A stretch of DNA of 64,000 nt from Siderastrea siderea (Eukaryota; Cnidaria; Anthozoa; Scleractinia; Rhizangiidae). Of this stretch, positions 2,633-56,178 are shown one piece after another. Positions within the stretch are counted from its first letter, which is position 1. Each line of letters starts with the position of its first letter. The position numbers and the translations under genes were made by a program. Location of the stretch: positions 45,095,201 through 45,159,200 of the forward strand of contig OZ034969.1 of assembly GCA_964030785.1 (NCBI GenBank), read 5' to 3'. The notes under the pieces are model-generated. The model was not told the DNA's origin and did not search any database. It saw only the letters and a list, made by a program, of their open reading frames with translations.

Positions 2633-3050
2633 TTAGCAAACAATTTCCTCTGATGAATACTGTGGACCATTGTCGATGATCACTTCAGATGGTATTCCAT
2701 TACTTGCAAATGTGGGAGATCTGTGGTATTTTAAGTGCCTGGTTCTTTGGCCTGTTAAGAAGTGTTGAGTGATAATCCATTTTTTTTCCATGTCAGCAAG
2801 AATGTGGCAATCATTTTGCAAGCCTTGAATGGTATGCGAGAAGGGTGTGTTGGCCCTTTTCATCTTTGTTGTTGGTGTTCCAAGCAAATAGTGCATCTTG
2901 ATGTCTTGTAGCTGATTTCACAATTTATTCCTGGCCAGTAAAGTACATCTTTTGTTCGTCCTTTGGATTTTTTGATCCCCATGTGGCCTTGATTTATCCT
3001 TTAAACCATCCCATTCCTCATAGTCGGTGGACAATTATTCTGTCGGTTTT
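2633..3050 (-). pseudogene. Ty3/gypsy-type integrase relic
   Basis: Read on the minus strand, this resembles the middle of a Ty3/gypsy integrase. Around 3020-2885 lies a zinc-finger-like stretch with the order GHMGIKKSKGR, then VLYWPGI, then CTIC. Around 2700-2640 the core motif GIPSEVIIDNGPQYSSEE appears, which carries the second catalytic Asp of the DDE triad. The frame is broken by a stop shortly before the zinc-finger part, and no LTR, RT or RNase H was found beside it. The motif order is directly visible; assignment to gypsy rests on family knowledge. It is a dead fragment of a retrotransposon polyprotein. Confidence 0.75.
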
Positions 3051-6000
3051 GAGAATGATATGCCGTCAAGTTCAGACTTGGACACCTGCTGGCGTCTAAG
3101 ATCTACCGCTTCTTTGATTTAATCCCGTATTAAATGTGAACGGGAGGAATTATATTAGCAGGCGAGCATGTCGTGCAGTTTTCCCGTCCATGCTTTTGGA
3201 ACTTGGTACTCGGGAGAGCCAGTTAGGAAGCTGTAACTCCTTTCTTTGCTTGTATTTCGGTGTATAGCGGTACTTTGGAATTTCAAATAGATCTAGTAAA
3301 TGTTAACAAAAGTTGACTCAAGTGGCCTATGAACTGATTTAAAGGTCACTTTCCTTAATTCCCTAATTGTGTCGATTGAACCTCTCTATGCTGATGTTAA
3401 CGGCTACGAGTTCTCTGTTCGTCTATATCTTGATTTGCCTTCTTTCTGTCAATTGTGACATGCCTTACCGTATGCAAGACACCCCAAGCCATTTCTGGTT
3501 CCCCTTTTTATGTTCCTTATCGGAGGTCGCTTTTTTATTTCCATAGCCTGTTTTTCTCCTTACTAACTCGATGTACTGAACAATCGTTGTCCAGTTGTTT
3601 CATTTGCCTTCCTTTTTTGAAAATATCACCTTTTTTTCAGAAGGTGTTATCTTGGTACCCTTAGCAATTATCTTATATTTGTGCTTCCTGTTGTAGTTTC
3701 TTGCTAAATGTGCCACGATCGCCAATGTCGATTATGGCACGAAGTACTGAGAATTGGATCCTTTTGTTCAATATAGTTCAGCTGTGTGACAGCGAAATAA
3801 AATGTGGTGGCTGCAGAAATGTGTATGGTTTTCGAATAAAATGTCTTGAACGGTTTCTGTTCGGTTTTTTCCTCGTGTTTAAAAATATATCTACTTATCA
3901 AAATGCCACTTAATAATAAAAGGGTTTCTTTTAGCTGTCAGGAATCTGAAATGTCCTTGATTTTTTTTCTGCTGTTCAATGCGATCACAGCGACGCTATC
4001 GAGCAAGTCTAAAAAATATTTCAACGCGTTATGCGTTTCCTTCTCGTGTAAGGTGCTTTCAGCTACATTAACAATCAGCAGGATTTACTTGCAATATGCA
4101 ACACCTAGTCTAGAATCTTTTAAATGTGTAAAGCGTGAATTTAGAGCAAAAAATAACTTCGTGAGGTTTAGCAGATCATGAAAAGTATGCCGATAAGGAC
4201 GGTGCCCCCTTTTGTTACTATGCATACGTTCTGCGCATCTCGGGCCTACGGTATGTTTCTCAAAAACCCCGAAAGGTTTTCGGCCCTAAAGATGTCATTT
4301 GTAAAGATGTGAAGAGCTCATTCTACAAAGCTGTTATTTTAAGATGTCTCTAGGATAAAAAAATAGCAGAAATATTACAGGAGAGTTTCATGCTTAGATA
4401 CTTCCGTGTTTAGAAGGTAGAGTGTGAATTATCGTGCCCGAAATCGGGCCGGAAAAGTTTTGTCACATTTTTCTTGTTAGATTCCAGTTGGTCTTGCTAA
4501 GATCTGCTTTTTCTCCATAGTCATAGCCTTCGCAAAAATACCCCTGTTTTAGCACCCACAATCGTTAAGTTTATTTTTCACTGGACTCCCAATACAGAAA
4601 TACTATCGTATTCTCAAAAGTGCCCCTCCCCCCCCCCCCCGGCTTAACTCCGACAATATTAACGCTTTCAAAACATTACTTCTACAGAAAATAGTACACC
4701 CAAAATGTTTTCTTTGAGGTCGGCAAGGTGACCTAATAACGTCACTTGACGTGGGAATTACGTCATGATCTTCACATCCGACATCCTTCTCGCCCGAAAA
4801 AAGTATCAATGCCCGAATGCGTGAGTGTTGGAATCAGGATACAAAAGCACTCAAATTGCATGGAAAACAAACACGTTTACAAGTCTCACGTCTAATGAAA
4901 CGGTTATTATTCCAAAAATAGTTATTTTGAAACCTCGCATATTCTAAGACCTCTATCTACAGTCTACTGGAACTAGTAAAATCAGAAACTTATTAAAAGA
5001 AAATTATTCTTCCCGCGGCATTGTCCGAAAATGTTTATTATTAGCTTGTTCACGATGACTTTATTGCCATAGGAGCGCTCGATACAGATCATGATGTTGC
5101 GGGGATAACGCCGGGCCAGAATGGTTGCGACCTTCGAAAACTCTGCCGGTCATTTCATAGAGGATGTTTTCGTGCTTCAATGACTTCTGCAAATTTTTTA
5201 TTGATTGCTACAAGTGTGCTGTCTTGAATTGACTGAACGGGTGTTGGTCTGCCTGGAGTAGCTCCTTGTCGAGGCTGTACTACCTGACAACCAGGTCAAA
5301 GCTATCACTGGTGGGCGAATCACTTAGGGTGATGTAGCCCACGCACGAAAAACATATTGGTCATTTCCACCGAAGCCATTCTCAATTTCGGTTAGGACCT
5401 TATCCAGGGAGGTGAAAAAGGTGCTGAAACGATGGAAATCCTGTGGTTTTTATGGCGGAGTAGGAGTATTGACGTTTTGGTTTTCCCCGACCAACGCTTG
5501 TAAGCGCGCTGAGGGTTGTCGTCGTGGCACACGAGCACCGCGGAATGAAAAATCGGATTCAGCTATCCACGACTTCATCTTAACACTGATACAGTTCCCA
5601 CATCGAGGTTACAGAATGAACAAATGTAATCGACAAGTTTTTCAACATCTTTCATTAACCAGTGGGATTACGAGCTGATGACACCTGATGAGACCATACA
5701 TTTTCTTTCGACGTTCGGTAGTTGCATTGGCATGTTCGCATTTAGCCCGAAGTTTTGAAACGACAGTCGCTGTTTCGTTTCTCTCTATTTGGTGTCTTTT
5801 TAGCTTTCTCCCAAGTGCTGTTGCCCGAATTATGAGCGTTTTTGCCCGAAAAAAGTTCAGGATCCCCCCCGGCTCGTACGCCTATGAAAGAATCGGCTGC
5901 TATTAGGAAGGAACACGGGAACACGTCAAACCATTGGATAAAAGCAGTACTTCTTTTTGGCTCAGGACTGAATGGCCTAAGATTTTCCTGTTATTTGAAA

Positions 6001-6100
6001 CTTTTCAAACCGCACAACGAGCTTCATATCTATTATCAGCCAACTTGGTTAAGGGATAATGCTGATCGTTTTTATAATTAGCAGCGCGGCTGCTTTCATA
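3051..6100. other. Intergenic DNA, no gene recognised
   Basis: Nothing supportable as a gene was seen. It contains a C homopolymer near 4627-4640 and several unconvincing short open frames. Confidence 0.45.
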
Positions 6101-6435
6101 CTAGAGACGTATTATCCGTCTGGGTCGAACTTGGGAAAACAATGTTTAGTTCTTGGTTAGAATGGTTATGCGTATTGTAAAAAGACGAGCACAAGACGGA
6201 TTCTCCGTCCATCCAGTTATTCCGTCTTCCAAGAGATATGTCCAGGGTAGCAGGCAGGAAAAAGCGCAAATTTCCTACCTGCGTGCAAACCTGGACATAA
6301 GTGTCTTCTAAGACGAACAAAAGCAGATAATTCGTCTTGTGCCCGTCTTTATGCGAGTCGAACCACGAGACACGTAACCAGATTAGGTAAACGTTGTTTG
6401 CCCAAGCGTGTCCCAGACGGACAATGCATCTCTAG
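6101..6435. mobile_element. MITE-like element with about 50-bp terminal inverted repeats
   Basis: The left end begins CTAGAGACGTATTATCCGTC and the right end is its imperfect reverse complement (reading inward CTAGAGATGCATTGTCCGTC). The match continues through a TTGGG and AAACAA block on both sides. It is about 335 bp with no coding capacity, which fits a non-autonomous DNA transposon. I could not define a target duplication. It lies upstream of the receptor gene's first coding exon. Confidence 0.7.
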
Positions 6436-7102
6436 AATTAAAAGGGCCAGTGGTAATACTTTTATCGGCCAAATCGTCGTCCTCTTTAGACTGACAAGAA
6501 CGTTTTTGCACATTCATTGACAACTAAGCAATACTTCAGAGGTTGGTCTTTCAGTTTTAATGGTCTTTAGATTAAAAAGTGACCATCAAAACAAAGCCAA
6601 TTTACTTTTATTCAAGACGAACTCAAAAAGGCAATTGCTTTCTTCATTGCTTTTCTCATTTGTTATTTTGGGTTTTACTTAAGCGCTAGTATAAAGGTCC
6701 TAAAAATACCTGTTAATCATTTCATCGGACTTCCTTGGCCTTCTTAGGTTGCAAGGCACGTGTATACGAAGTTGTTAACGCACGTGCGGAGATGTGTGTT
6801 TCACAGGGAAATCATGTTTTCTGGCGGTAAAATGTTTCCTTATAGTCATCTTCATTAGTGAAGAGCAAAAACAGAATGTCTCAGATATACTGTCAAAACA
6901 TTTTTGTGGGTTTTTATGGGTTTTGTGGGTACGAACACGTGAAGGCACACTTCCAGCCCCAAACTCTCTTCATAAAAACAAAGCAAACAGCATGTACATT
7001 TTACATGATTTTTATCATTTCTTTCATTTCATTTCCTTCTTTACTGCATCTCAACGTGAAAAGGATTGCACTGAAGATGAAGATATAAAGATAACGCTAA
7101 AG

Positions 7103-7154
7103 ATGAAGGAAATATTTTATGCCATTACTCTATTGACGCTCTGGAAAACAAAAG
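7103..7154 (+). CDS. Receptor gene exon 1: start codon and signal peptide
   Basis: The exon starts at an ATG and encodes MKEIFYAITLLTLWKTK. The hydrophobic run IFYAITLLTLW after a charged start is a plausible though short signal peptide that would send the protein to the ER. The exon ends in phase 1 at AAAAG followed by GCAAGT, the consensus of a GC-AG intron donor. The final G joins the first two bases of the CUB exon at 7343, also phase 1, to make an Asp codon, and this frame fit supports the call. Upstream in-frame sequence lacks a better start. A 5' UTR or extra 5' exons may lie upstream, and no promoter motif was identified. A cDNA read across 7154/7343 would settle it. Confidence 0.65.
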
Positions 7155-7342
7155 GCAAGTCATGAAACCTTGTGGCCGTTACATTGTTGTTGTTATTATT
7201 TTTCTCATTTTAAACCAGCTTCATTTATTTTGAATAAACAAATTGAAATTGGTAAACAAAGTTGCACGTATTTCAACTGATGGTTCCAACTCATAAAGCT
7301 GTGCGTATCACTTTTTTCATTCAATTTTGTTTTTACCTACAG

Positions 7343-7687
7343 ATGTGCATTCCACACCGTGCACCTTTGCTCTGAACGGCTCCAGAGGGGTCATCAGCTA
7401 TGACACATACAACAGCCGAGAATGCAGATGGATACTCAAAGCACCAACTAAGCACAACATCAAATTGAAATTTACGCTTTTCCAGTTGTATGGTTATCCA
7501 GGATTTGCAAATGAGATTGAAGTGTATGATGGCAGTAGTACTAATGATGCCTCACTGGGTGTTTTCACTGGGACACGACTGCCATTCACCGTTCACACCA
7601 GTGGCCGCTTTATGCTGGTAGAGTTAAGGAGGAGACCAACCTACCTTTGTAACTTCAAAGGTGTTTACAATTCCAGTACGATAAAAG
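7343..7687 (+). CDS. Receptor gene exon 2: CUB domain
   Basis: This 115-codon exon has phase-1 borders on both sides, with acceptor TTTTTACCTACAG and donor AAAAG/GTGAGC. The translation follows the CUB fold: an N-terminal CTFALNGSRGVISY, then ECRWIL, then a beta-rich stretch with IEVYDGSS, then FTVHTSGRFMLVELRR, and finally a GVY end. CUB domains bind protein or sugar ligands outside the cell. Length matches the family (about 110 residues). One oddity is that only three cysteines are visible: the position usually holding the third Cys, just before the YDG motif, reads NEIEVYDG, so the second disulfide is probably missing. Phase-1 symmetry is typical of shuffled extracellular modules. Confidence 0.88.
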
Positions 7688-8589
7688 GTGAGCTCTAATG
7701 TACACTAAAAAATGCGATATTCAAAATATTGTATCAGACTGTTTCAGTAACTTGAAGAACTATTTTTTAACAACTTAGTAAAGGACTTACCGCATTAGTC
7801 CATATTCTAAAAGGAGAGATATTTTTGGATGAAATGGTGAAGCGTTTTATATGTCCTCAATTTTAATTCCGACTCCGTGAAATTGTTTAAAATCGCATTT
7901 TTTTACATATTGCTTTTTTAAGTTTCTATTGACAGGTCTTGTTACAATTTTTCGGATCATGTCAGTTACGAAACCAAAATGACCAATGTTCAGTGCTAGC
8001 CCTGCTCTAGAACGCTGCTTTCTCGACGATCGTTTAAAACATTTCAAGTTTTTGGCGAGTATTGGATAAATTACAAGTGCATTGTCTGAACCTGCAAATA
8101 AAAAAGCCCTAGGGCTTGTTTATTATCAACTGCCCACACTTCTTTCTTTTTGATGGACAGATTACATTAGCTTTAGTGGGTGGGAGTTTTAACTACGTTC
8201 AGACTAGAAGAGGAAATCCGTACCTGCAAGCTTATAACTTCAAATTAATCTGCTCGATTCTAGTGCGTGTAGTTCTTGCTCGATGTTTCAATGGCAACGG
8301 TATTTAGAAAGGCAGATTTACCCGAATTTTATATTATTTTTGTTAGTTTGATTTTCCTTTAAATAAAAATCTTTAACTTTTTTTTAATTTATTGGTCTTT
8401 TAAACATCCTTGTACTTGTAACGTAGCTTCTAAGTCAATTAAGCCAAATTTGGTGGTATTAAGAGCCGTCAATACTGACCAAGGTGTAGAATTACCACGA
8501 GCAGCGAAGAGGTTGAAACAAAGCACTACCAAAGAAACAAGAAACGTTATGTCTCCCCCAAAGTATTATCCTTACATTCCCAGTCCTTT

Positions 8590-8816
8590 TATTACATGAT
8601 TTAAAACGGCAAGGTTTCAAGATCAAAGTAGTAGAAAAGGCTGGTATTGCAATTAAGAGATTGCTCCAGAGGTCTGATCCGTGTAAACCGCGACAATGTG
8701 AAAGAGAAGACTGCCTGGTATGCAGAACGGGTGGAAAAGGACCCTGTGATAGGCAGAGCGTAACATATGAAGTCAAATGTACCGAGTGTAAGAACATCTA
8801 CGTGGGAAAAACATAA
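8590..8816 (+). pseudogene. Penelope-like retroelement fragment (start of GIY-YIG region)
   Basis: A plus-strand reading shows KVVEKAGIAIKRLLQRSDPC, a cysteine-rich linker with the spacing CEREDCLVCRTGGKGPC, and CTECKNIYVGKT, then a stop. This order (RT C-terminus, Cys-rich linker, YVG of a GIY-YIG nuclease) is characteristic of Penelope-like elements. The nuclease is cut off by TAA directly after the first motif, where family members usually continue with Glu-Thr. A related but frame-shifted stretch lies just upstream (about 8480-8590). It sits in the intron between the CUB and Ig exons and is non-functional. Confidence 0.75.
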
Positions 8817-9005
8817 AGAACAGTTTTACAGTTTAATAGTTCTTACATGACCAATTTGACAATTTTATTTGCGACTGACGAGGCTCGAAGAGCGAAATAT
8901 ATTCCGCAATTTTAACAGTGTCTATATCGTTTTAGAGGTTTTAAGTGCGTCGAATGTGTACCAAAGACGTGATGTCTAGTTGTTCTCCCCGTTTTCCATT
9001 TGCAG

Positions 9006-9239
9006 ATAAACCAAAAATAAAAATTCCAGTTGCTGTGGTGCGAACAGTACCAGAGCATTATGTATGGTGCTTGGCCGAAGGGACTCCTCCCATCAGTATA
9101 TCTTTGTTCAGCGCATCTACACCCTTGGCTAGTAGGATAGGAGTAGTAGGAAGTAAAATTTCCCAGGAGGGCAACTATACGTGCACGGCTGAGAATGAAG
9201 CTGGTTCTGACAGTAAAGACGTCCTAGCCGCTTTAACCG
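9006..9239 (+). CDS. Receptor gene exon 3: Ig-like domain
   Basis: The 78-residue exon has phase-1 borders (acceptor CCATTTGCAG, donor ACCG/GTAAGA) and stays in frame with the CUB exon before it and the LRR cap exon after it. It shows an Ig I-set pattern: WCLAEGTPP supplies the first Cys, and EGNYTCTAENEAGS supplies the Y-x-C motif of the F strand. The domain is short (about 90 residues is usual). The core Trp normally found about a dozen residues after the first Cys appears replaced, as the region reads ISISLFSA. The exon probably forms an extracellular recognition module between the CUB and LRR parts. Confidence 0.85.
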
Positions 9240-21027: not shown

Positions 21028-21651
21028 GTAAGTTTGTAACTTTATTACATGTATGTTGTTTATATGAAATATGAAATTAATTAGACGAACACTTTCTATA
21101 GCTGCATCGAATATGGGCAACCAGTAATCCGTGGCAGGCAAGTCCATCTTGCTTGCTACTTTACCCTTATGCTTTGCCCTCATTTGCAGAAGGAGTTGAG
21201 GCGTAGCTGGAGAAACAAAGTTTCCGAATTTTTTTTCTGTTTGATTGTTGGTTTTAAAAGCTTGTTGTACGTGGGAAGCCTTGTTTGCTCGCAACTTTAT
21301 TTGTCATCGGAAAAAATGGGCTCTTGTGTGTTTTTTTCTCTCTTTTTATGGTCGACACTTTTTTACAATAACTGTGAGACGTCTCCCCCGGGGATTGGCT
21401 CTTGCTTATTGTCGATGAGACTATAGGCCATAAAAACTGACGTCATTATGTAACACGATCCCGCCTGGGCTGGTGGATAAATTTTGCCAAATTGTTGTGC
21501 CTTTCCGCTTTTTAAACTTTAAGTCACAGTGCTACAGCAAATCTGAAAATATTCAGTGAGGTCACAGTCGATAATCAGTTAATTTAAACTTTTTTAAAAT
21601 ATTGACTAAACTTCTCAGAAACCAACTGCGAGGCAAAAATAAGAGATTATT

Positions 21652-21847
21652 ATGGCAAGCCGTCACTGCCAAAAGCCTATCGACTTGTAAATACCGGTCC
21701 AAACGGCTTCCAATATCATCGAGTTAGAAAGATGATATGGTCAGTTTTGGAAATGTACGGTTGAGTAACAAAAATTATATGGTCAGTTTTGGAAATATAT
21801 GGTCGAGTTCTGGAAAGCGGTGGTTGAGTTGCTTTAGAAAAGCTTCA
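21652..21847 (+). repeat. Left terminal inverted repeat of the 8.6-kb transposon
   Basis: About 196 bp, matching the reverse complement of 30063-30258 with roughly four differences seen by eye. It contains a twice-repeated block ATATGGTCAGTTTTGGAAAT. Confidence 0.92.
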
Positions 21848-22087
21848 GTTTTCGCTAGCGAGTTTTTATTTTCTCGCTAGCGAGTTTCATTTTTCGCTAG
21901 CGAGTTGTTAATTTCTCGCTAGCGAGTTTTCAATTTCTCGCTAGCGAGTTTTCAATTTCTCCCTAGCGAGTTTTCATTTTCTCGCTAGCGAGTTTTCAAT
22001 ACTCGCTGCGAGTTTTCAATTTCTCGCTAGTGAGTTTTGATTTTCTCGCTAGTGAGTTTTCAATTTCTCGCTGGCGCGTTTTTTAGC
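21848..22087 (+). repeat. Left subterminal array of CTCGCTAGCGAG palindromes
   Basis: About eleven or twelve units of 22-23 bp, consensus CTCGCTAGCGAGTTTTCAAT, cover the DNA between the TIR and the transposase start. The 12-bp core is a perfect palindrome, and the units decay towards the gene (GTGAG, GGCGCG variants). Arrays of this kind usually bind a dimeric transposase; that function is inferred. Confidence 0.9.
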
Positions 22088-22159
22088 GAGTCTTTCAATT
22101 TGTCGCTAGTGCCACGTTCTCCGGTTTTTCCAGGACGGAGTAGTCCTGGGGATGATTAT

Positions 22160-23635
22160 ATGGTGTCCAATATGGCGTACGTTGATGCTGCGGAAGAACT
22201 TCAGAGTTATTTTATTGGTTTTGATATTTTACAACAATTAGACTCCTGTGCTGACAACCTTGCGACTAAATACTTGGAAAGGAAACTGGAAGATTATGTC
22301 ACAATTTTGTTTGGGATGATTTGCCAGCTAGAAATAGGTGAAAGTGCTGAGCATCGAAACGACCTCCTTGCACTCTTGAAAATACTTTATGAATTAGCGT
22401 ATGGAAAGCTGGAGGAGATATTCAGTCAAATCAATATGGAGCAGGTATCTCTTGAGCAGAGATCTGGTTACTACGTTCCCCTTGAGAAGACAGGCGGTCG
22501 ACCCAAATTTGCGATTACTAAAGAGCAGCTTGTGAATCTTCGGGAGACTGGCCTAACCTGGGCAAAAATTGCCACCTGTCTGAATGTCAGTGAGAAAACT
22601 CTGTACAGACGAGTCCAGGAATTTGACATTGATGGCAGATTTTCTGACTTATCAAACACTGAACTGGATGAACTGCTTAAATCCATTTTGGCGGTGACTC
22701 CCCGGGCAGGAGAGAGCTACATTCGTGGGAGTTTGAGAGGCAGCGGCTTACGAATTCAGCGGTGGAGGATAAGAGAAAGGCTAAGAGCTATAGACCCTGT
22801 GGGCAGAGTAGCTCGTAGGAGCTGTGCAATTCGAAGGCAAGTATACAATGTGCGTGCGCCAAATTGTCTGTGGCACATTGATACTAATCATAAATTCATA
22901 GCATGGAGATTTGTTATCCATGGCTGCATCGACGGCTACAGTAGGACAGTTACCCACCTGAACTGTGCCACCAATAACCTTGCAGTCACTGCCCTGCAAT
23001 ATTTTCAGGAGGGAGTGAGGAAATATAGCCTTCCTAGCAGAGTGAGAGGTGACTGTGGAGTGGAGAATGTCGATGTAGCAAGGTTTATGATTTCAAATCG
23101 TGGTACCAACAGGGGAAGTTTCATAACAGGAAGAAGTGTCCACAACACTAGGATTGAAAGGCTGTGGAGAGAAGTTAATCGAGTTGTTACCAGTCACTAC
23201 TCAGCAATATTCAGGCACATGGAACATTATGGGATCTTGGACTCCACTAGTGAGCTGGATATGTTTGTCCTCCATTATGTTTTCCTGCCTCGAATAGCCA
23301 ACTCATTAGAGGAGTTTACAGTACAATGGAACTACCATGGAATCAGGACAGTTGGACACACTTCTCCACTAGCCCTATGGAGTTATGGTATGGTTTCCCT
23401 GAACGCCAATGATGACATGGTAGGAGACCTTCACAGCTACGGTATTGATTATGAAGTGCCCCGTGAGGACAGTTCGGATGATGCCATTGTCGTTCCCGAA
23501 AACCAGTTTCATCTCACAGATGAAGAGAAAGCAGAGCTGTTTTCAGACATTGATCCATTAACAGACGATGGGGACTCAGGTATAAATCATTTCTGTGATG
23601 CGCGCTCTCGAGTAATTGACAGCCTTGTGCGATAG
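22160..23635 (+). CDS. Integrase-type (rve/DDE) transposase
   Basis: The frame is open for 491 codons from the ATG at 22160; a second in-frame ATG is at 22172. Residues about 112-156 form a DNA-binding helix-turn-helix (GGRPKF, then [20 protein letters not shown], then SEKTLYRR). The catalytic core follows at about 230-345. First Asp: D241 in LWHIDTNHK, before [12 protein letters not shown]. Second Asp: D298 in VRGDCGVEN. Glu: E333 in [12 protein letters not shown]. The Asp-Glu spacing of about 35 is that of retroviral-integrase-like enzymes. Such proteins cut and join transposon ends in the nucleus. The frame is complete with no stop, so it may be active. The promoter region is the palindrome array directly upstream. 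The family is well represented in fish and cnidarian genomes, from memory of the motif pattern. Confidence 0.9.
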
Positions 23636-26462
23636 AGCATATTATCATTATCAAATGTGGATGAAAATGCACGGGGGGGGGGGGGGTGAGTACTCGGAAA
23701 AATTTTGGTGGGGTTGTGCTGCTGGGATTCTGAAACCGTTACCCTATACCAGACCACTTTCAGGTCCTTTTTGCAACCCTATTCTAGACTAGATGCCAAA
23801 AAGGCCTACCCTATCCCAGACTAGCTTTTTTCCAGCTATCTATCAGAAATATAACCACATAGTGCTTTTAATGGAATCCATACGTCGATCAGAAAAGTTG
23901 TCGGGATTTCATTTACATTTATTTCCCAATTTTTGAAACCCATTTTGGAGGAAATCTTTGACACCACCCATTTGTTTCCTGGTAATTGATATTCTAGATC
24001 TAAACTCCCTGATTTCTACTCCTTATCCCAGACCAAACTGCTTGAAAGCCATACCCTCACAGCGGCACATACTTACAATGTATACTGGTCACGTATGGGA
24101 GTACCCCCCCCCCCACAGGTAAAAGAGAGACTGACATCTGCATTTTTAGCTTAATTGTTCTAATAGTCAAACGATTTACTAACTGGAAAAGTGCGGCCTT
24201 CTAACATCTCCTTTGTTATGTCATATTTCTGGGGATACTTCTGCTACTGCATGATGACCTGAGGGATTTGTTTTGGACAAGTTCCCCTCTACTCATGAAT
24301 CTGACATTGTCATGCTTGGGTAACTAAAACAATGTAAAAAAGTCAAAATGACATTTCGTTAGAAGCTTTGTTTGAAGTTGCAGTAAGTAGCGTAAAACAG
24401 TTCTGAACGTTACATTGGGTTATCTACAGAAATAATTTGGAGTATGAAATAGCTCACCCCCTCTAATAAGTTATCCACCCCCCACTCCATGGTCATGAAG
24501 CAACAGGTTCTAAATATATCTTGTATTGGCAGTATAACATTATTTTGTATTTGAGTCATAAACGGACCATATTTTTATCTTTGAAGTTTCCAAAATTACC
24601 AGATCTCCTTGATACTGAAAGGCTTTGTTGGGCCCAATTTCAGTAAACAAGCCTTTTTTCACTGAAACAATTGGCATTAACATGATGGGGTGTCCAAGAC
24701 TTTGTTGTAAATCACCCAACTCAGAGAGTTGAGTTAATACCAGTTAGCCTGGTATCTTTGTCTCAATTTAAAAACAATTTCACAGATAAAATGGAGCATT
24801 TCTTTGATTCCAATACCACTTGTATAAGTAGAGATTACAAGAAAATATAAGGAACAGACTTATTGAGGGGTAGAGCATGTATGATTACTGCCTCTCTAGA
24901 ACCGAGTGAACTGTCTGTAATGCAAAGGTATCTGGAGAGGTTTGACTGTAATAATTTCATTAAACACAATGACAGAAATGGTTTTAAATCTTTATCCAAG
25001 AGTAGTAGTTCACATCAAGAAAGTACCTCCAAAAGACAATGTTATATCAAAGGCGTTGAATTTTTTTTTAAATGACAGGGTGGAGAGATGTTACATCCAC
25101 TTTCTAAACACAAGGATACTTTGGAAAACAGTACAGAGTAACATCCATGTTAAAGCTCAAAGTAAATTATTAGTGTTCTCCATCTTACAAGAACTACAGA
25201 AGATGACATTTATCTTATGAAACCAGTTTCATGGTCTCTTGTTATTGGCCTTGTCAATGTATATATTACATGGAAGTATGATATCTTTCACCTTAATAAA
25301 GACCACTTCTACAAGGTTCAAATTGTGTCTGAGAAACACGTCTTGGAATAAAGTTTTAAACTTTTGTATCTCATCCGGCCCTTTTTTTTAACAAGAACAT
25401 TAACATATTAGACTGCTGCAATTGAAAACATCCCAACTCACTTCCCAGTAATTATTACTAATCAATAATTAAAGCACTGGGACAAAATGCCATAAATGAC
25501 TTTTTTTGAAATGTGATATGAGTGGCTATGCCTTTCAGTTGTATGTCAACCTAAACACCTTACAATTGTTTAAGTAGAAAGTTCCCTTTATGCTGCAAAA
25601 GACCACATTTTCAGCAGCAAAAGCTCCAGGTCACTGATGACAGTTTTGCCTCCCAGACATGAACATGCCACTTTAGAATTAACATAAACGTTCTGAATTA
25701 ATGTCATATCCAGACCTTCTCATCCTTTGCTAGAGACATAATTGAAAACTGGAATAACGTACTGAATATGGGTACTGTCAAGTTTCATATTACATGTCAA
25801 TAATGTCACAAAGATGTTTCTGGGCCCCGTGATTGTCAGCAAAAAAGGGGGTGAAGGATTGGAATGAAGCTACTTGTCTAATCAGATTAGTGATCAGTGA
25901 CAAAAACGGATTTTGAAAGGTGTTGTCCTAAAGAGTAAGACGATCTGGTTATGAGATAACTTGTAACTTTCCAAGACTTGCTTGGTTTTATGATAGGTAC
26001 CTTTTATTCCAATATGAACTTAGAAACATGCCACATGCAACTGAACTGTCCAATGGCAAACTAAAATAACCTCATTACCTGTCAGGGCTGCCGTGGCTAG
26101 AAAAAGTGGTTTTTTTCATAAAACCAGGGTTGGTTGGATAGAAGAGTGGCCACTAGCTGAATGCACTGCACTGATTAAATTACCAGTTACAGTCGAAGAA
26201 AAGTGTTACAGCCACAGGGCCTGCTCCAGAACAATGTACACCAACATTATCTAAGGGAATGCATAACACTTTTTAACACTTGCCAACTATTCATCTGATT
26301 ATAATATGGAGAAAACAGGGAATTATATACGACCTAGTATAAAAAAAAAACCAGCACTGTTCTCTATTGTAACATATATGTACTTTGCTATTGAAATGAA
26401 ACTTTATACCACAAGAACTCAAAAGTAATGTCCTATTTGACGTTTTGCACAAGTTTGTTTAA
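23636..26462. other. Non-coding interior of the 8.6-kb transposon
   Basis: No convincing protein was found between the transposase stop and the 3' end of the HECT gene. Near 23674-24117 a G-tract with GAGTACTC and a mirrored GGGAGTACCCCCC suggest a nested small MITE of about 440 bp. The rest is AT-rich and may include 3' UTRs of the two convergent genes. Confidence 0.5.
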
Positions 26463-27128
26463 TCATCTCTTTCCAAATAAAGCACTGGAAAATGCACAGT
26501 CATAAATTTCGAGGAGCTCTTTATCATCTGGCAGAGAGGTTTTGCCACAAACACATCTCGGCAAATGCAGTGTATTGGAGCAAGTGTTGGCAGATGGAAG
26601 AAAGGACCAAACACGGCTGTCTTTAGCTGCAGTAAACTCAATAGAAGGTAAGATGTTGAAACCCAGAGATGGCTCCTCATCTGTTCCAGTGATAAACTGG
26701 AGAATGTGATTCAGAGTAACAGATTCTCTGAGCCCACTTCCTGCTTGCTGGCAATACCTTAAGAAAGCCTGGTATGTTGAGTTCTCATCTGTACAGGCAT
26801 TAGACCCTTCCTCTGAGAATTGGGGTGTAAGTAATGATAATAGTTTACGCCTTGACAGCATTGAAGCTGAAGATGGGCGAAAAAGATGTAAAACAGTTGG
26901 CAGTGCATTTCCAATCTGGTAAATCCCCACTTTCTGAAATCCATTTCGAAGCTTTCCAATACACTCAGAGGGTTCTCCAGATCCAAAAAGTTCCTGAAGA
27001 TGGTCTTCAGACAAACACCTAGGAATATTTCCATTCTGAAGGACACTGAGTGCCATCACAATGCCAGCAAAGTAATAATCATCAGCCAGGTGTTCCTTTA
27101 AACCATTATCAAAGTAGTCATTCCTTAT
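26463..27128 (-). CDS. HECT-type E3 ubiquitin ligase C-lobe exon (transposon cargo)
   Basis: The minus-strand exon starts after acceptor CTCTGTACAG (27128) and reads to a stop at 26463. It matches the C-terminal half of HECT ubiquitin ligases: DYYFAGIVMALSVLQNGNIP, CLSEDHLQELFG, then GFNILPSIEF, and the C-lobe motif FLPSANTCSNTLHLP, where the Cys (codon at about 26580-26582) is the expected thioester-forming residue. HECT enzymes pass ubiquitin from an E2 via this Cys to substrates. The protein ends shortly after at SALFGKR, as real HECT proteins do. It belongs with the exons at 27600-27660 and 28801-29676. I infer that it is transposon cargo, not a host gene, because it lies inside the TIRs. 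Confidence 0.82.
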   Translation of the reverse strand: MRNDYFDNGLKEHLADDYYFAGIVMALSVLQNGNIPRCLSEDHLQELFGSGEPSECIGKLRNGFQKVGIYQIGNALPTVLHLFRPSSASMLSRRKLLSLLTPQFSEEGSNACTDENSTYQAFLRYCQQAGSGLRESVTLNHILQFITGTDEEPSLGFNILPSIEFTAAKDSRVWSFLPSANTCSNTLHLPRCVCGKTSLPDDKELLEIYDCAFSSALFGKR

Positions 27129-27195
27129 CTGTACAGAGGGCCACAAGTTTATCTGTACAGAGGGCCACAAGTTTTTAGTACAGAGGGCCACAAGT
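27122..27195. repeat. Three-unit minisatellite at a HECT exon border
   Basis: CTGTACAGAGGGCCACAAGT is repeated three times and overlaps the exon acceptor, so the acceptor motif itself has been copied. The open frame through it (NLWPSVQI repeats) is probably intronic. Confidence 0.85.
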
Positions 27196-27244
27196 TTATT
27201 AGTATGTATATACTATTATGTGTTTTACCCTCTTTAAATAAAGG

Positions 27245-27245
27245 C

Positions 27246-27295
<50 letters not shown>

Positions 27296-27298
27296 CTG
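27245..27298. repeat. TTAC microsatellite
   Basis: About a dozen TTAC units in an intron of the HECT gene. Confidence 0.95.
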
Positions 27299-27599
27299 TT
27301 GAAGACACAATCTGAAGAACTCTCTTCTTGGCCCACCAGCATCACCACCAGCATCACCTACCTTAACTGGGCTGAAATTCACCATGTAATCAGGCCTTTC
27401 CAGAGTTGTTTTACAAAGTTGAAATTTGACTCACTAAGTAGGGAAAAAACATTTTCTGAACATGAGGGTGTCAGTCCAGCTTGGCTAAACCTCAGGATGG
27501 TACTTACAGTTTCAGCTAGTTACAGTTTTGAAATAATTTTGAGTTTAGAAAGATCTTACAATGACCAGAATCAATTAATTTTGATGTCAGGAAAAATAC

Positions 27600-27660
27600 C
27601 TTCAGAACTACTTGTCTTTGTTAAGTCCCAAATTGGCTTCATTACTTCCTCATCATCTTC
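27600..27660 (-). CDS. Probable internal exon of the HECT cargo gene
   Basis: On the minus strand a 61-base open segment sits between acceptor TTCATTTCAG and donor GAAG/GTATTT, encoding an acidic EDDEEVMKPIWDLTKTSSSE. A further candidate exon follows at about 27410-27358 (ending SPVK before GTAGGTG). The splice signals are good but there is no recognisable domain, so this is tentative. Confidence 0.4.
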
Positions 27661-28164
27661 CTGAAATGAAAACAAATCAAATTATTTTTTGTTCCTTGTA
27701 TACACACATTGATTTTTTTTAGGACGGTATGTACCTTGTGGATTACAACTCTCTAAAACTAACATTAATCATTAGGGGCTTGGACAGAGTGCTTACTGTA
27801 CTACCATAGGGAATTTGCAATGCTGTGATGCCATTAGCATAAAATTTGCCTTCTCTTCAACTGACTTGGGGCAAAAAATTATCGACAAGTCACGATGCTG
27901 AGGGTACAACATATAATTTATATTATAATACACATTTCAACTTTACTTTATTTTGCATTTCTGCCATGGCAAAATTTAATGTTATGCTACTATCATTTAT
28001 AGCACAACACTAAATTTTGGCGTGCTTCCATTGGTCGAAATCGATCACGTGACGCGATAGTGTCTCTCCTCTCAGCGGGCGCCTATCAGCGAATAGTGCC
28101 TGTGTGTGGCAATTTTTGCTCAAAGTTTAGCGTTGTACAATAAAAACAATAGAGTTCTGCTGTC

Positions 28165-28270
28165 TTGGGCCCAATGTGTGATAGGTTCCCTCGGAAATTT
28201 GATGTTCAAACTTCATATAATATAACATTTGCTGTGAACATCAAATTTCCTGGGGAAACCTATCACACGA
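28165..28270. repeat. Inverted repeat inside the transposon
   Basis: TGATAGGTTCCCTCGGAAAT with TTGATGTTC is mirrored by GAACATCAAATTTCC and GGGGAAACCTATCA. It is a hairpin of about 100 bp, perhaps a nested MITE in a HECT-gene intron. Confidence 0.65.
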
Positions 28271-28800
28271 TAGAGCCCTCGACAGAAGAACTCGATATAT
28301 GAAAATATTATCTGCACATAAGTTATAAAAATGACAAGGATTGCATGTAAGTCCCGATACAATACACTATACAACTGGTGATTGTATCAAAACATATAAT
28401 TGCTTGTGGTTGTAAATTATCATTCAACTATCCAATCTCCCAAGTAGTCACGTGTTGCCTTGCACTCTAGATCGTCAAGGCCAACACAAGCATGTCACTC
28501 AAGAAGTAAACACTACATTCCATCATTTGCAAGTCACACACGCTGGACTTGACACCTGACTTAACAGACAGAATTTTCCTTCAAAACTTTATTTCATGGC
28601 GCATATAGTTTGTCCTTTGTTTCAAACTAATATTTTTCATCCAGTGTGAGTTTTTGCTTTGCCACACATAATTAAGCTTTCTGTTCTTTTTTGAGATTTT
28701 TGTTTTAGTTTCACTCGGTAAATAAAGTCCTTTAAAATGTTTTCTTTCAAATTGACTGAACACTAGTACACTGCCCCCCCCCCCCCCCGAAAACTAACCC

Positions 28801-29676
28801 TCAGCTGACCTCGCTGTCATGCTTGGCTTTTTTGAACGATGGCTCCATATCAAGAATGGTTCTCATGGGTCGAATGTACACTGGCTTGTCGTTGAAGACC
28901 TTATGTTGCAAAAATCCAGACAAAACCTGCCCAGGAGCTAGCACAGGAGCCATCAATCGAGAATGCACCGGCATCAGCACTTCAATGTCATCAAAATCGC
29001 CTAGCCTTGTCGGAAATAACGACTTAAGGAAATCATGTGAAGTACTTTCGTCCCATTCCTTCAGAAACTGGGCCCCTGAAACAACGTGACCGTTTTGCAT
29101 GAGCCATGCCCGGGCTCCCTGCCGGGGAACATTTTCGTGTTGTGGTCCGCCAAGCAAAACAACGTCCTTAATAAAAGGTCCATGCGGTGTCTTACTGCTG
29201 GGTTTGCCCTTCTTGCGAACCCTTGTGTTGTTAAAATTGTAAGACAACCGAAAGCGTGGAGTCGTCGCAGAATTCGGGCTACTTCTTTGCCCTTGTTGAG
29301 AAGATTGCTCTCTGACCTGTGCAGAATTGGTGCTACTACTTTGCCCTTCCTGAGAAGATTGCTCTCTAGCTTGTGCAACTGGCTGAACTGAGCTTCGCCT
29401 GAAAATCCTGGCAACTTCTCTGTCAACATTTGATCGCCCACCGTTGTTTGCCTCGGGTGCATGAGGTCTGTCTGGCTGGCTTTCTACGCGCTGTAGTTCC
29501 CTGCCCAGTCTTCCGATGTTATCAAGTAACTGTCTTACAATGGGGTTCATCTTTAAATTGAGCGTATCTTCCGTATTATAGCCTCCCTGATGAGAATCGT
29601 CCCTGTGAGCGGACAAACTGGAACCTTCGACGTATTGGGCGCGAAAATGAGGGCGAAAGGAGTTCTGGGAAAGCAT
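28801..29676 (-). CDS. N-terminal exon of the HECT cargo gene
   Basis: The first in-frame ATG is at 29676, just inside the right palindrome array, and the frame stays open for about 290 codons. The N-terminal half is hydrophilic and low in complexity, with a repeated segment (REQSSQEGQSSS, then REQSSQQGQRSS). The C-terminal half is structured-looking: FIKDVVLLGGP, then PRQGARAWLMQNG, then GQVLSGFLQHKVFNDKPVYI and RPM. A KDVVLL start and a YIRP end before a HECT domain fit fish and cnidarian HECT proteins as I remember them. A donor-like GAG/GTCAGC lies at the frame's end, so splicing to the HECT exons is likely. It shares the transposon with a convergent transposase. Confidence 0.7.
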   Translation of the reverse strand: MLSQNSFRPHFRAQYVEGSSLSAHRDDSHQGGYNTEDTLNLKMNPIVRQLLDNIGRLGRELQRVESQPDRPHAPEANNGGRSNVDREVARIFRRSSVQPVAQAREQSSQEGQSSSTNSAQVREQSSQQGQRSSPNSATTPRFRLSYNFNNTRVRKKGKPSSKTPHGPFIKDVVLLGGPQHENVPRQGARAWLMQNGHVVSGAQFLKEWDESTSHDFLKSLFPTRLGDFDDIEVLMPVHSRLMAPVLAPGQVLSGFLQHKVFNDKPVYIRPMRTILDMEPSFKKAKHDSEVS

Positions 29677-29711
29677 CCCACTGTTCTCTGCGCCCCCACT
29701 CAAAAACAAAC

Positions 29712-30053
29712 TCGCTAGCGAGAAATTGAAAACTCGCTAGCGAGAAAATAAAAACTCGCTAGCGAGAATTGAAAACTCTCTAGCGAGAAATTAAAAACTC
29801 GCTAGCGAGAAAGTGAAAACTCGTTAGCGAGAAATTAAAAACTCGCTCAGTAGCGAGAAAGTGAAAACTCGCTAGCGAGAAATTAAAAACTCGCTCAGTA
29901 GCGAGAAAGTGAAAACTCGCTAGCGAGAAATTAAAAACTCGCTAGCGAGAAACTAAAAACTCGCTAGCGAGAAATTGAAAACTCGCTAGCGAGAAATTGA
30001 AAACTCGCTAGCGAGAAATTAAAAACTCGCTAGCGAGAAGATAAAAACTCGCT
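29712..30053 (-). repeat. Right subterminal array of CTCGCTAGCGAG palindromes
   Basis: About fifteen units of 22-23 bp, the reverse complement of the left array (CTCGCTAGCGAGAAATTGAA). Two units carry a 3-base insertion in the core (CTCGCTCAGTAGCGAG). The array abuts the start codon of the HECT gene at 29676. Confidence 0.92.
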
Positions 30054-30062
30054 ACCGAAAAC

Positions 30063-30258
30063 TGAAGCTTTTCTAAAGCAACTCAACCACAGCTATCCAG
30101 AACTCGACCATATATTTCCAAAACTGACCATATAATTTTTGTTACTCGACCGTACATTTCCAAAACTGACCATATCATCTTTCTAACTCGATGATATTGG
30201 AAGCCGTTTGGACCGGTATTTACAAGTCGATAGGCTTTTGGCAGTGACGGCTTGCCAT
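30063..30258 (-). repeat. Right terminal inverted repeat of the 8.6-kb transposon
   Basis: Near-identical reverse complement of 21652-21847, ending GGCTTGCCAT. Confidence 0.92.
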
Positions 30259-31240
30259 ATTTATTCGTGGTAGTCCAACAGCGAAATTTTTTTAATGGCG
30301 AAGATCGATTGGTGATCGGCCGTTCTAAAAAAAAAGAAAAAAGAAAAAATTAAAATCGGAATTTTGGAGAACTCAGAGAGGTTATTCAGCAGATATGAGG
30401 AATTCTTAATTCGAAAGGAAAAATGGTCAATCTTATACAAAGGGTGTGAAAAAAAAATACCAAAAAGGGTTTGAAAAATACCAAACAGGCGCCTCGAAAA
30501 TAAAGAGAGAAAACTTGTTTTCCGGTGTCTTGAAAGGCAATTTTTAGCCACCATTAAGTTCACCAGAAGAGCGGATTAAGCGCCCGTGGCAGATCTACTC
30601 CACATCGCATCCCACGGAAGAGAATCATCGCTCGTTTTATCCCCCATCCTTTATCAGCCATCTGCTAAAGAAAACATAAAACTCCACCCTGCCTTTTTTA
30701 CAAGACAAGAAAGAAACAAACAAACAAAACAATCGTTTTAGAGTAATACAACAGTAGAGTTGATGTTCGCGGGCGTAAATTGTTTTTGGCCCGACTCAGG
30801 GTTAGAATGAGCTCTGAGAAAGGCCAAAAACATATTTACGCCCAAGAACATCAACTCTATTATTATTATGATCATCCCAGAGGGTATTGAGAAAAGCCGC
30901 GAAATTATTAGCAGCATAGTGAGTGGTGAGTTGACGAAACCGACACAGCGTGTCAAATGTTTACAAAACAAACAAGGTACAATACAACCGGAAAACATTT
31001 TTCAAAATAATTTCTGCTCCAAAATGTTTGAAAGAAAAATGATTCAATCCTCAGTAGAACCAGCCGCAAATAAGTCATTTAGGAGTGCTGATGTTAATTG
31101 TACAATTTGTGAATAAGCAGTTTGGCAAATTGCCTGAACGGCCGAGCGAGTTTGGTTCGTCGACGACAAACAAACTTCTCCGCTTTGCATGGAGCTACTA
31201 CAGGCATTATTTTCAGTTACAGCTTCTTTGAGCTTGTTTA
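30259..31240 (+). repeat. Segmental duplication unit 1, right part
   Basis: From TTATTCGTGG onward this matches 36608-37402, including the AAATTTTTTTAATGGCGAAG and GTGTCAAATGTTTACAAAAC blocks. A small palindrome (30752-30862; AGAGTTGATGTTCGCGGGCG and its mirror) lies inside and is shortened in the other copy. A minus-strand frame starting MTNEQRNFQSSQLGEEDLNK ends in this block; it has no recognised domain. Confidence 0.8.
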
Positions 31241-40843: not shown

Positions 40844-41416
40844 CTATCCGGGCCAGCGTACAATCCTTATCAGAAAGAATTTTGAAAGGGCGTCAGCAGG
40901 ATTATGCGCCGAAGTTATGTACTTGACGTCTAAAGAGATGTTTTGCTTGAGCATGGTATGGTATAAGATCTTCAGCGCGTCGTTTAACTCTTTGCTTTTC
41001 CCACCTTGCCTCCCCCAGGATTGATTGAGGGCCCTGGAGTCAACGTGCGCATCAAGACGACAATTCTTAACGATGGCGCTGGCCGATTGAATAGTGAAGG
41101 CCAAAGCGAGAGGTTCTTTAGCAGCAATGGACTTGTCCTTATCGTTGTCGCTCCACAGACCGTGACATTCCAAAGGCGGACCACAGGGGTTCTCCACAAC
41201 GCCGTCCCACGCGAACAGAGAAGCATTACTGCTCAATTTGACCACCATGTGCGGCGCATCTAACCAACGCAAGCTTTGATTCCAGGAGCCGAGGAAACGC
41301 CAATATCGGATTTCAGCTTTAAGATCGCCCACTATTTTAATAGGACGAGAGGAGCGCGTTGCTCTGGCCATAGCACGGTAAATTTCAAGAGCATAAAGCT
41401 TGGCCGCTGGGACAGC
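40844..41416 (-). pseudogene. RNase H region of the DIRS-like element
   Basis: From AVPAAKLYALEIYRAM the frame runs through SSNASLFAWDGVV (first acidic strand, the usual leading Asp reading Asn), KEPLALAFTIQSA (Glu), LDAHVDSRALNQSW (Asp) and VKYITSAHNPADALSKFF (final Asp). This is the RNase H signature of retroelements that removes RNA from the RNA-DNA hybrid. Upstream, between it and the RT frame, a small deletion and a stop disrupt continuity. Confidence 0.75.
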
Positions 41417-41478
41417 CTGCTAAGCGTTGGAGTGATTTAATAGAAGCATTACCCTGACAAAGGTTTGACTCACGCAGG

Positions 41479-42516
41479 CTAGCAAACTTCTCCTTCCTGA
41501 CAACTGGAAGAACGAAAGCCTGCAGATCTGAATCGCATAGGAAATCCAAAAAACAGACTATTTTGGGGGGGGGGGGGGGGTAAAATAACGCATTTGTTGA
41601 GACCTATATAATACCCAAGATAGACCAGAAGGGCACAGGCTATGAAAGCACCAGCCTGCGCCAGTTGGAGATTGGACCATCGAAAATGCGAGCCTTGAGG
41701 TAATTGAAGTTGGCCTACGTGACGGTCATCGATGCAAGGAACGCCAAATAAGCGAATTCTATTGGTAGCTGCCATTCCTATGTTGTGGTTGATATAGGCA
41801 CTGGCCTTCCATCCGAAAGGAATAATTCTATATGTAACAAACCAGCCCTTCCACGCCAGGTCAAAATACGTTGTACTCTCGGGCGATACGATAACGTGAT
41901 CGTATCCGCTCTTGTCGTCAAAAACCGATTGGAAATGCCCATGAAACACATGACGAGGGAGGTTGGAAATGTAGTCGAACGAAAGAGGAAGGTCCTTAAT
42001 CCACAGGCTTAGGAAGCGCTCATCATGGCACATTCGCGGCTTAGAAGGTTCAACAGTAATAGGCATTATAAGATGAGGCGGCGCCACTTCACCAATTCTG
42101 CCCCAAATTGAAAGAGACCCATTAGAAACGCGATCCAAAATAGTTGCACTAATAAAGTCTTCAAATTGCTTGCGAATCTTGCTATTAGGGAAGATTGCAG
42201 CCGGAGGAGAAGGAAGGTTGTAGAATTTCCCCTGAAAATCTCCCTTGAAGTGGACGAAAAAGTCAGACACCTTGACACCGTGAGAAATATAATCGAAAAA
42301 CTCCTGACGCTTAGGATAATCTTCAAGAATCCAATCCCACTGCAAAAAGTGGCGGTGTATTTCCCCAGCCACGAATGTTTTTGGATCGCGGAACAGAACC
42401 TGCGCGGGGGATGCGAAAACAGAAACACACGAAACCATTTCCAGCGAAGGGTTGGGGCCCGCCATGCGGGGTTTTTCCCCTTTCCAGTCACACCAATCGA
42501 GCTTATTAGGTACCAC
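41479..42516 (-). pseudogene. Reverse transcriptase of the DIRS-like element
   Basis: About 345 codons are open; reading continues upstream to about 42555, where an acceptor-like TTACTATTAG lies. Motifs: PSKPRMCHDERFLSLWIKDL, then FDDKSGYDHV (motif A, catalytic Asp), FDLAWKGWFVTYRIIPFGWK (motif B region) and GVPCIDDRHVGQL (motif C). Motif C keeps the two Asp but the Tyr that should stand two residues before the first Asp is absent, apparently from a small in-frame deletion. The remainder is degraded by a homopolymer at 41567-41580. Not functional as it stands. Confidence 0.78.
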
Positions 42517-42798
42517 TCTCTCGGGATCAAATTCTAAGCGAGGTTTTTTCAGTCCACTAAGGCACTAATAGTAAACAGGAAAGGGGAAAAAACTAACCAC
42601 ACGGCTAGCCCCGAAATACCTCGTCTAAGACAGAGTGAAGGTTTTAGATAGCCCCTTCGGGACCATCCGGAGGTTGGCAGAAAAAACACAAACGAACCAA
42701 GAAATATCCACAAGAGACAAGAGAGCAGTTTATTGGTCATGGAAAACTAACACAATACAATTACGAATAATACGAAAAGTCACATACAACGCAATAAA

Positions 42799-54353: not shown

Positions 54354-54608
54354 AATAGATACTGGGAGCGCCTGTACAGTGCCACCAAAAAGGAGATGTT
54401 GGCTATGGTGTACACCATCAAGCATTTCAGCCGCTACCTGTACGGGAGACCTTTCACCTTTAGAACTGACCACAACGCACTGAAGTGGCTTCAGAGCTTC
54501 AAAGAGCCCGAAGGCCAGGTAGCCAGATGGTTAGAGAAGCTTGCACAGTACGACTACAAGATTGAACACCGCCCAAGTGGTCGAGACCAATGCAGTAGAC
54601 AGCAGTAA
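54354..54608 (+). pseudogene. Gypsy pol: RNase H fragment
   Basis: ERLYSATKKEMLAMVYTIKH, then YLYGRPFTFRTDHNALKWL and GQVARWLEKLAQYDYKIEHR represent the middle and end of gypsy RNase H, including the catalytic Glu and the Asp of RTDH. The beginning is missing and the frame shifts at about 54590. Confidence 0.82.
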
Positions 54609-56178
54609 CCAGACGTGGCTTCAAGATTGGACGGCAGCTGACATGAAGTTAAAGCAAGAAGCAGACCCGAACCTGAGACAGATACTGTTCTGGAAACAGA
54701 ACCGAGCTGCGCAACCAACACAGCAGGAAGTACAAGGTGCCAGCAAAGCCACCAAGAGCCTGTGGGCGCAATGGAACCGGTTACAGCTGGAGAACGGTGT
54801 GCTCTACCGTAAGTGGGAGACCGAAGATGGTCACGGTACCCGCTTACAACTTGTACTTCCTCGGTGGCTGGTACCAGATGTCCTGTCAGCTCTTCACAAT
54901 GCCCCGTCAGCCGGACATCTAGTTGTGACCAAAACCGTCGAACGAGTGCGAGAAATTTATTGGTATGGCCTACAACATAATGTCGAAGACTGGTGCCGAC
55001 AGTGCGAAAAGTACGTGAAGAGGAAGTTCCCCCAGACCACAGCTCGAGCACCATTAGTTAGCAGCTGCCCTGGTTATCCATTCGAAAGAATCGCATTGGA
55101 TATCATGGGCCCCCTGCCGACTACAGAATCCGGTCAAAAGTACATCCTGGTTGTTGGCGATTACTTCTCGAAATGGACAGAGGCGTTTCCCCTCCCGAAC
55201 CAAGAAGCGAAGACAATGGCAGAGAAACTTGTTAATGAAGTCATTGCCAGGTATGGGGCACCGGAGAAAATCCATTCAGACCAAGGACGTATCTTTGAAG
55301 CCCAGCTGTTCCAGAAAATGTGCATTCTGTTCAACAAGGATAAGACCCGTACCTCTCCATATCACCCAGAAAGTGATGGAATGGTCGAACGAATGAATCG
55401 TACCCTCCAGGATATATTGGCCAAGTACGTTTCACACCATCAGCGTGACCAGGATGAGCACCTGCCGTTGGTAATGATGGCCTATCGGTCAAGTATTCAT
55501 GCATCCACCCAGTACACACCTTTTAACCTTTTGTTTGGCCGTGAGGTGCGATTACCAATCGACGTGATGTTTGGATGGCAGCCAAACCACCAGCCAGAAG
55601 TATCCGAATATGTAAGGGACTTGCGTGACACTCTATAAGAAGTCAATGAGCACGCCAGAGAGCACCGTCGGACTGCCCAGAAACGTCAGAAGGACCTTTA
55701 CGATCAGCGAATTGCTGGAGAGCAAATCGAGGTTGGCGATCGAGTGTTCCTTCATGACACCGCAGTCAAGAGAGGGCAGACTAAGAAGTTCCACTCATCA
55801 TGGCAAGGTCCTTACATTGTAGTGTCCAAGATTGGTGATGTGACTTATCGTATCCAGGCAGAAGACAACCCCAGCAAGAGGAAAGTGGTACACTTCAACC
55901 ACCTGAAACCCTGTGGTGTAGCTAAACCAGTGGATCAGCAGCGCGGACCTACCCAGACTGCTAGCTCTGAGCCTAACACTAAAATACGAAGACCGCATGT
56001 TCCACCACAGTATGTTCCTGGTGAAACTGACCTCATGTACATGGATGAGACAGCAGCTGATGCGGAAGCCGCAAGCCCTGAACACCTTGACCGAGATCAG
56101 GAGCCGCCCGCTGCAGTCAATGACCGACCAGTACATGCAGAAAGCCTAGACGAGAAGTCAGACCACCAATCTGGATGA
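54603..56178 (+). pseudogene. Gypsy pol: integrase with one in-frame stop
   Basis: Zinc-finger region: AGHLVVTKTVERVREIYWYG and DWCRQCEKYVKRK, where the usual second Cys is Tyr. Core: LDIMGPLPTT (first Asp), KIHSDQGRIFEAQ (second Asp) and DGMVERMNRTLQ (Glu), a complete DDE set. The C-terminal part after the TAA at 55636-55638 stays in the same frame (GDRVFLHDTAVKRGQTKKFH, then FNHLKPCG) up to a stop at 56176. A single nonsense codon therefore separates the core from the C-terminal DNA-binding part. Integrase joins retroelement cDNA to host DNA; this copy is broken. Confidence 0.88.

Follow-up and report, generated by a model that had tools for sequence, protein, structure and literature searches.

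Transposons of the IS3EU superfamily end in TA..TA termini and usually generate a 6-bp target-site duplication (TSD) (PMC10045372), and in rust fungi their ends follow the pattern TAYGG..CCRTA, again with a 6-bp TSD (PMC12730594). Shorter duplications are given for the Ginger elements, 4 bp for Ginger1 and 4 or 5 bp for Ginger2 (PMC10045372). The word HECT is absent from the main text of PMC10045372. In the open-access literature, no paper naming IS3EU and HECT together was found, and no HECT-bearing transposon of the type described below was found among open-access titles and abstract openings; Repbase entries may record such elements. Blastx matches reported for the unclassified repetitive elements of a fish include one to G2E3 (PMC5638112).

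The locus analyzed here lies in a 64,000-nucleotide stretch of Siderastrea siderea DNA, referred to as the window. Positions 21651–30259 hold an 8.6-kb two-gene DNA transposon bounded by inverted repeats about 240 nt long. It has in common with IS3EU/GingerRoot elements, as these are described in PMC10045372, the TA..TA termini, a 6-bp TSD (at sister copies), and an integrase-like DDE transposase. Comparisons were made with pieces of the same genome picked by a HECT or transposase match (L-numbered loci) and with protein relatives (P-numbered).

Outline and genes of the window copy

The termini of the whole element (21651–30259) read TATGG..CCATA, the IS3EU-type TA..TA form, and the element matches positions 86–9191 of locus L010 end to end except for a gap in the HECT gene. 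A pair of inverted-repeat arms at 21646–21887 and 30023–30264, 242 nt long and 97% complementary with 8.1 kb between them, encloses both the transposase and the HECT gene, as the initial annotation had proposed for one near-identical pair of terminal inverted repeats (TIRs). By repeat search and alignment, the TIRs were placed at 21651–21890 (plus strand) and 30020–30259 (minus strand), and the alignment of their outermost 200 nt contains three differing positions. The element as outlined earlier, at 21652–30258, was recovered with both exact ends moved one base further out. Inward of these outermost 200 nt, both sides carry 22-nt tandem repeats containing CTCGCTAGCGAG, at 21844–22082 on the left (plus strand) and 29708–30058 on the right (minus strand). 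A TSD is the mark of a single insertion and can be lost. The window copy has no 6-bp TSD, its flanks being GATTAT and TTTATT.

The transposase gene occupies an open frame at 22034–23635 on the plus strand, with the start codon at 22160, and encodes a DDE transposase of 491 aa (22160–23635) that matches the Pfam family PF24764 (rva_4) with an E value of 3.3e-75. The residues D241, D298, and E333, with 34 residues between D298 and E333, are exactly those previously claimed for an intact rve-type transposase. A helix-turn-helix (HTH) stretch upstream of the rva_4 core matched PF13384 under its Pfam cut-off; among the six Pfam rows at E up to 1, there was no zinc-finger family, and upstream of the core only HTH-type, sub-cut-off matches appeared among these Pfam profiles. 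A search for relatives gave 1051 matches among 8000 scored candidates, and the named proteins among the best 120 of these 1051 came from corals, a sea anemone, soft corals, a mussel, fish, and a beetle. The nearest named protein matches of both the transposase and the ligase are cnidarian.

The second gene lies on the minus strand, convergent to the transposase. Its C-terminal part is open at 26463–27131 (minus strand, stop codon at 26463–26465), is 94% identical to the relative P0122 over 222 aa, and ends in a HECT C-lobe (PF00632, E 2.8e-10), in which the codon of the catalytic-type cysteine in the SANTC motif is at 26580–26582 (minus strand); the corresponding alignment column has the same cysteine in most of the relatives. 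At the other end of the gene, the first exon (28810–29550, minus strand), 47% identical to the relative P0121, encodes an N-terminal helix and, judged by fold, a ubiquitin-like (beta-grasp) domain; a further in-frame ATG is present at 29676. A small middle exon is probable at 27600–27660 (minus strand) in a gene model drawn from GT/AG splice sites and similarity to P0121, assessed by eye. A structural model of P0121 matches HECT structures, with a best E value of 3.7e-11.

The HECT gene of the window copy is broken, as the start of the domain is missing and the exon is interrupted by a simple-repeat piece. This piece, at 27132–27295, consists of (TTAC)n and about three copies of a 24-nt unit, and it splits the HECT sequence at residue 174 of P0122, where the relatives are continuous. 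It is absent from the five sister copies compared (L009–L013), and no second match to it was found in the window or in the compared loci. Adjacent to it, a remnant of the HECT N-lobe (GGPRREFFRLCLQQ) at 27296–27356 (minus strand) forms the edge of a deletion. The two pieces of the window HECT together reach profile positions 43–284 of 285, and residues 1–162 of P0122 (395 residues) have no counterpart anywhere in the window. Three long blocks of the window copy are 95–97% identical to L010, and the region L010 2906–3582 faces window 27133–27356, with collinearity stopping at 2906 and resuming at 3582; of this region, the window keeps only about 3532–3582, as the remnant. The earlier description of a convergent gene with a HECT C-lobe and a cysteine in SANTC was thus borne out, and the idea that this gene is intact was not. 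The window copy could supply transposase at best, and any ligase that it might require would have to come from elsewhere in the family. A four-exon gene model in which the (GTAA)n piece was spliced out was rejected, as P0122 and L010 read straight through, and a stretch earlier modelled as the start of the HECT domain proved not to be HECT on comparison with the relatives and L010.

Frames resembling parts of other elements were also noted in the window by eye: open frames suggestive of a Gypsy-type LTR retrotransposon at its integrase end (54535–56178, plus strand), frames suggestive of a DIRS-type reverse transcriptase and RNase H (40844–42564, minus strand), and a frame like a LINE reverse transcriptase tail (61941–62501, minus strand).

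Sister copies and superfamily assignment

Four loci (L009, L010, L012, and L013) carry the window TIR at 97.9–99.6% identity with HECT and transposase sequences inside. The HECT gene is accordingly neither lacking from all other copies of the TIR family nor a single-copy host gene outside such TIRs, the two outcomes that the initial annotation had named as speaking against its reading. Among these copies, the transposase is truncated in L013 and contains one stop in L012; the pieces compared for L009 and L012 stop short of the outer right end. L010 is complete, with ends at 86 and 9191, an exact TSD (CAAACG), and both frames open. In L009, L010, L011, and L012, the HECT domain was matched from profile position 1 in one frame.

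Ends of the form TATGG..CCATA were found in the window and in L010, L013–L016, L029, L030, L031, L033, and L034; in the other loci of the 26 scanned, the ends were not found, were unclear, or were outside the piece. An exact 6/6 TSD accompanied these ends in six of the 26 loci (L010, L014, L015, L016, L029, and L034). The TSD was inexact in L033 (five of six bases), L013 (four), and L031 (three), and there was none in L030; L025 has the TSD GAAAAA if its last base is counted as mutated (by eye). Since L010 belongs to the window's own family, a 6-bp TSD is present at the family level. The suggested placement within IS3EU fits by the TATGG..CCATA ends, the integrase-like DDE core, and the 6-bp TSDs of the sister copies. 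The TSD length is at odds with Ginger1 and Ginger2, being 6 bp in six loci as against 4 bp and 4–5 bp for those elements.

Pairing and constraint of the two genes and apparent exchange of ligases

Searches of the 831-Mb assembly gave at least 137 HECT profile matches in 96 clusters (129 of 278 candidates scored), part of which look like multi-exon host genes, and at least 95 transposase matches, spread over 87 loci (with 87 of 983 candidates scored). By coordinates alone, and among the matches listed, the two lay within 15 kb of each other at 12 of the 87 transposase loci and 12 of the 96 HECT clusters; all 12 of these pairs were convergent, against a chance expectation of 0.084. Twenty HECT loci were then picked by hand from the 96 clusters, a non-random choice of mostly repeated or long-frame matches that excluded the window copy. 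A transposase was present in 17 of the 20 and was convergent in every case (17/17), a count that includes L024, in which the profile matches to both transposase and HECT are weak. No transposase was found in the 10 kb examined at each of L011, L021, and L028.

Six transposase loci, likewise not a random sample, were picked to span families from the 75 at which Pfam gave no HECT match within 15 kb. Every one of the six holds a convergent gene that shares the N-terminal domain of the ligase, weakly in L034 (E 0.001). HECT was clear in L031, L033, and L034 and missed the Pfam threshold in L029 (E 1e-4) and L032 (E 3e-4). L030 gave no HECT profile match; its frame resembles that of L029 by eye as far as the TCGP.LELPSTY motif, from which we infer a HECT domain in this locus as well. 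The second genes of L029, L030, and L032, whose HECT is barely or not seen by Pfam, keep the N-terminal domain and the TC motif, and they possibly represent a separate HECT subfamily. The partner gene in six transposase loci lacking a Pfam HECT match nearby shows that Pfam misses ligase partners, and 12 of 87, a count among the matches listed, need not be the true proportion. The pairing of transposase and HECT is recurrent in this genome rather than a one-off, and the best reading is that its IS3EU elements commonly encode an E3 ligase. Two further IS3EU-like loci, L025 (75–6889) and L026 (from about 3333), are 99.7% identical, with TIRs of about 550 nt and the HECT sequence in three pieces, which suggests a young and possibly recently active family.

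A search for ligase relatives gave 57 matches, of which 51 were aligned and 6 left out; the query was the rejected gene model, and the matches fall in its correct parts, the first and last exons (five checked). The catalytic cysteine is present in 48 of the 51 aligned HECT proteins. P0122, a close relative of the window ligase, has a tyrosine in its place, and some ligase copies may, as this residue would suggest, be catalytically dead. For the HECT of L034, 15 of the best 120 of 121 relatives are named 'G2/M phase-specific E3 ubiquitin-protein ligase(-like)', and those among the matches listed came from a gorgonian, corals, sturgeons, groupers, crucian carp, a catfish, a crinoid, a brittle star, an acorn worm, and a firefly. 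These fish and invertebrate proteins are relatives of the L034 HECT and differ in being annotated as host genes.

Within the window's family, dN/dS was 0.10–0.34 for the transposase, 0.29–0.83 for the last HECT exon (exon 3), and 0.36–1.17 for the first exon. Over a wider set of within-family pairs, including L009–L010, HECT dN/dS ranged from 0.12 to 1.00 with few changes, and some within-family values exceeded 1, again with few changes (transposase to 1.65, N-terminal domain to 2.26). Within families, the constraint on HECT is mild, with dN/dS only mildly below 1, and is weaker than that on the window-family transposase. Between families (five pairs), HECT dN was 0.43–0.53 with dS saturated, and because dN stays at this level despite saturated synonymous sites, constraint has acted on the HECT protein over longer times.

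Co-inheritance of transposase and HECT, which was expected, was not found across ten families (45 pairs; Mantel r 0.03, p 0.37). The transposases of these ten paired families are 25–67% identical to one another. L019 and L022 have transposases that are 67% identical and HECT sequences that are 19% identical, and in L019 and L034, the values are 32% for the transposase and 52% for HECT. The transposase data reject the clade L019+L020+L034 (p-AU 0.00013), and the HECT data reject the transposase clade of L019, L020, L022, L023, and L027 (p-AU 0.0057); these p-values are indicative, as the clades were named after the distances had been seen, the branches are long, and five transposase rows have less than half of their columns filled. 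Because the HECT and transposase trees conflict, we read the ligase modules as having been repeatedly exchanged between transposase lineages or captured anew.

Proposed role of the ligase and comparison with known transposons

In the mechanism that we propose, the rva_4 DDE transposase would act on the long inverted ends to cut the element out and paste it elsewhere, leaving 6-bp duplications, and the convergent gene would give rise to a ligase carrying a ubiquitin-like domain at its N-terminus and a HECT domain at its C-terminus. An intact ligase is predicted to pass ubiquitin via its cysteine to a substrate, which would be a shared host factor that limits transposition through silencing, DNA damage signalling, or the cell cycle. 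The sequences themselves bear out the two-gene layout, its recurrence with the same TIRs and in distant families, the conserved DDE residues and cysteine, and an apparent swapping of HECT types. We are very confident of the two-gene IS3EU-type anatomy of the element, and it is likely that this anatomy and a working role for the ligase within the element hold together.

The substrate is a more tentative matter. A host factor is the more likely target because the ligases appear to have been exchanged between unrelated transposases, and the chances that the ligase acts on such a factor rather than on its own transposase can be put at a little under even. The ligase might instead tag its own transposase or strand-transfer complex, either to disassemble the complex after integration or to limit the amount of transposase. 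This would agree with the keeping of both genes together in one element across many families and with a role of the ubiquitin pathway in transposition, which has been proposed from the OTU and Ulp1 domains of Ginger1 transposases (PMC2836005); however, the exchange of HECT types between transposase lineages is unexpected for a close co-adapted pair, and the two genes are separate and unfused, so that we consider a target within the element's own machinery unlikely.

Whether the ligase serves the element at all was also weighed. The idea of a host ligase gene captured by chance, and carried as a passenger to no benefit, has on its side the broken HECT gene of the window, within-family dN/dS reaching 1.0 in HECT (from 0.12) and 1.17 in the first exon, and the likeness of part of the genomic HECT matches to multi-exon host genes. 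Such a passenger is nevertheless improbable given the always-convergent pairing in ten families with such divergent transposases, the partner gene recognized by its N-terminal domain in six of six loci chosen by transposase alone, the protein constraint between families, and the cysteine kept in nearly all aligned relatives. Even less credible, to the point of being negligible, is the explanation that only the left-end frame belongs to a transposon, the HECT pieces having come from a host gene or an insertion unrelated to it. The lack of a TSD at the window copy means that its outline could stem from recombination, but in L010 both genes lie between these TIRs with an exact TSD, and the locus aligns end to end save for the HECT gap.

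Returning to a host-directed ligase, we put forward, as somewhat less likely than not, the broader proposal that a HECT ligase with a ubiquitin-like domain is the standard second gene of animal IS3EU elements, a swappable module directed against host silencing or cell-cycle control and exchanged as TET/JBP genes are in fungi, and that transposons are the true owners of many animal genes now called 'G2/M phase-specific E3 ubiquitin-protein ligase-like'. Such elements could account for some unclassified repeats, and for 'G2E3-like' gene models, in the genomes of fish and invertebrates. Ligases that recur and yet are swapped resemble a toolkit under host pressure, and jumping genes may in this way manipulate the protein-tagging system of the host. 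As a two-protein element, its parts are testable in cells.

Among known systems, those Ginger1 transposons that bear an OTU or Ulp1 protease domain, many of them in the cnidarian Hydra, share with this element an integrase-type transposase and a link to ubiquitin or SUMO (PMC2836005). As described there, the Ginger1 enzymes remove such tags, are domains of the transposase itself, and go with a 4-bp TSD, whereas the ligase here is encoded by a separate, convergent gene and the TSD is 6 bp. With mobile elements that write ubiquitin marks, the enzymes known from transposons would include a writer as well as the removing enzymes OTU and Ulp1, and the participation of the ubiquitin system in transposition, proposed in 2010 (PMC2836005), would become testable. 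The closest parallel in layout is provided by the fungal IS3EU elements bearing TET/JBP genes, which have TAYGG..CCRTA ends (in rust fungi) and a 6-bp TSD in common with the present element and in which an alpha-kinase gene is opposite in orientation to the transposase (PMC12730594), a similar arrangement with another enzyme, in which the two genes may be convergent or divergent. The partners of the fungal transposases are thus a kinase and a TET/JBP dioxygenase in place of the HECT ligase found here, and the accessory TET/JBP genes likewise move between transposon lineages (PMC12730594).
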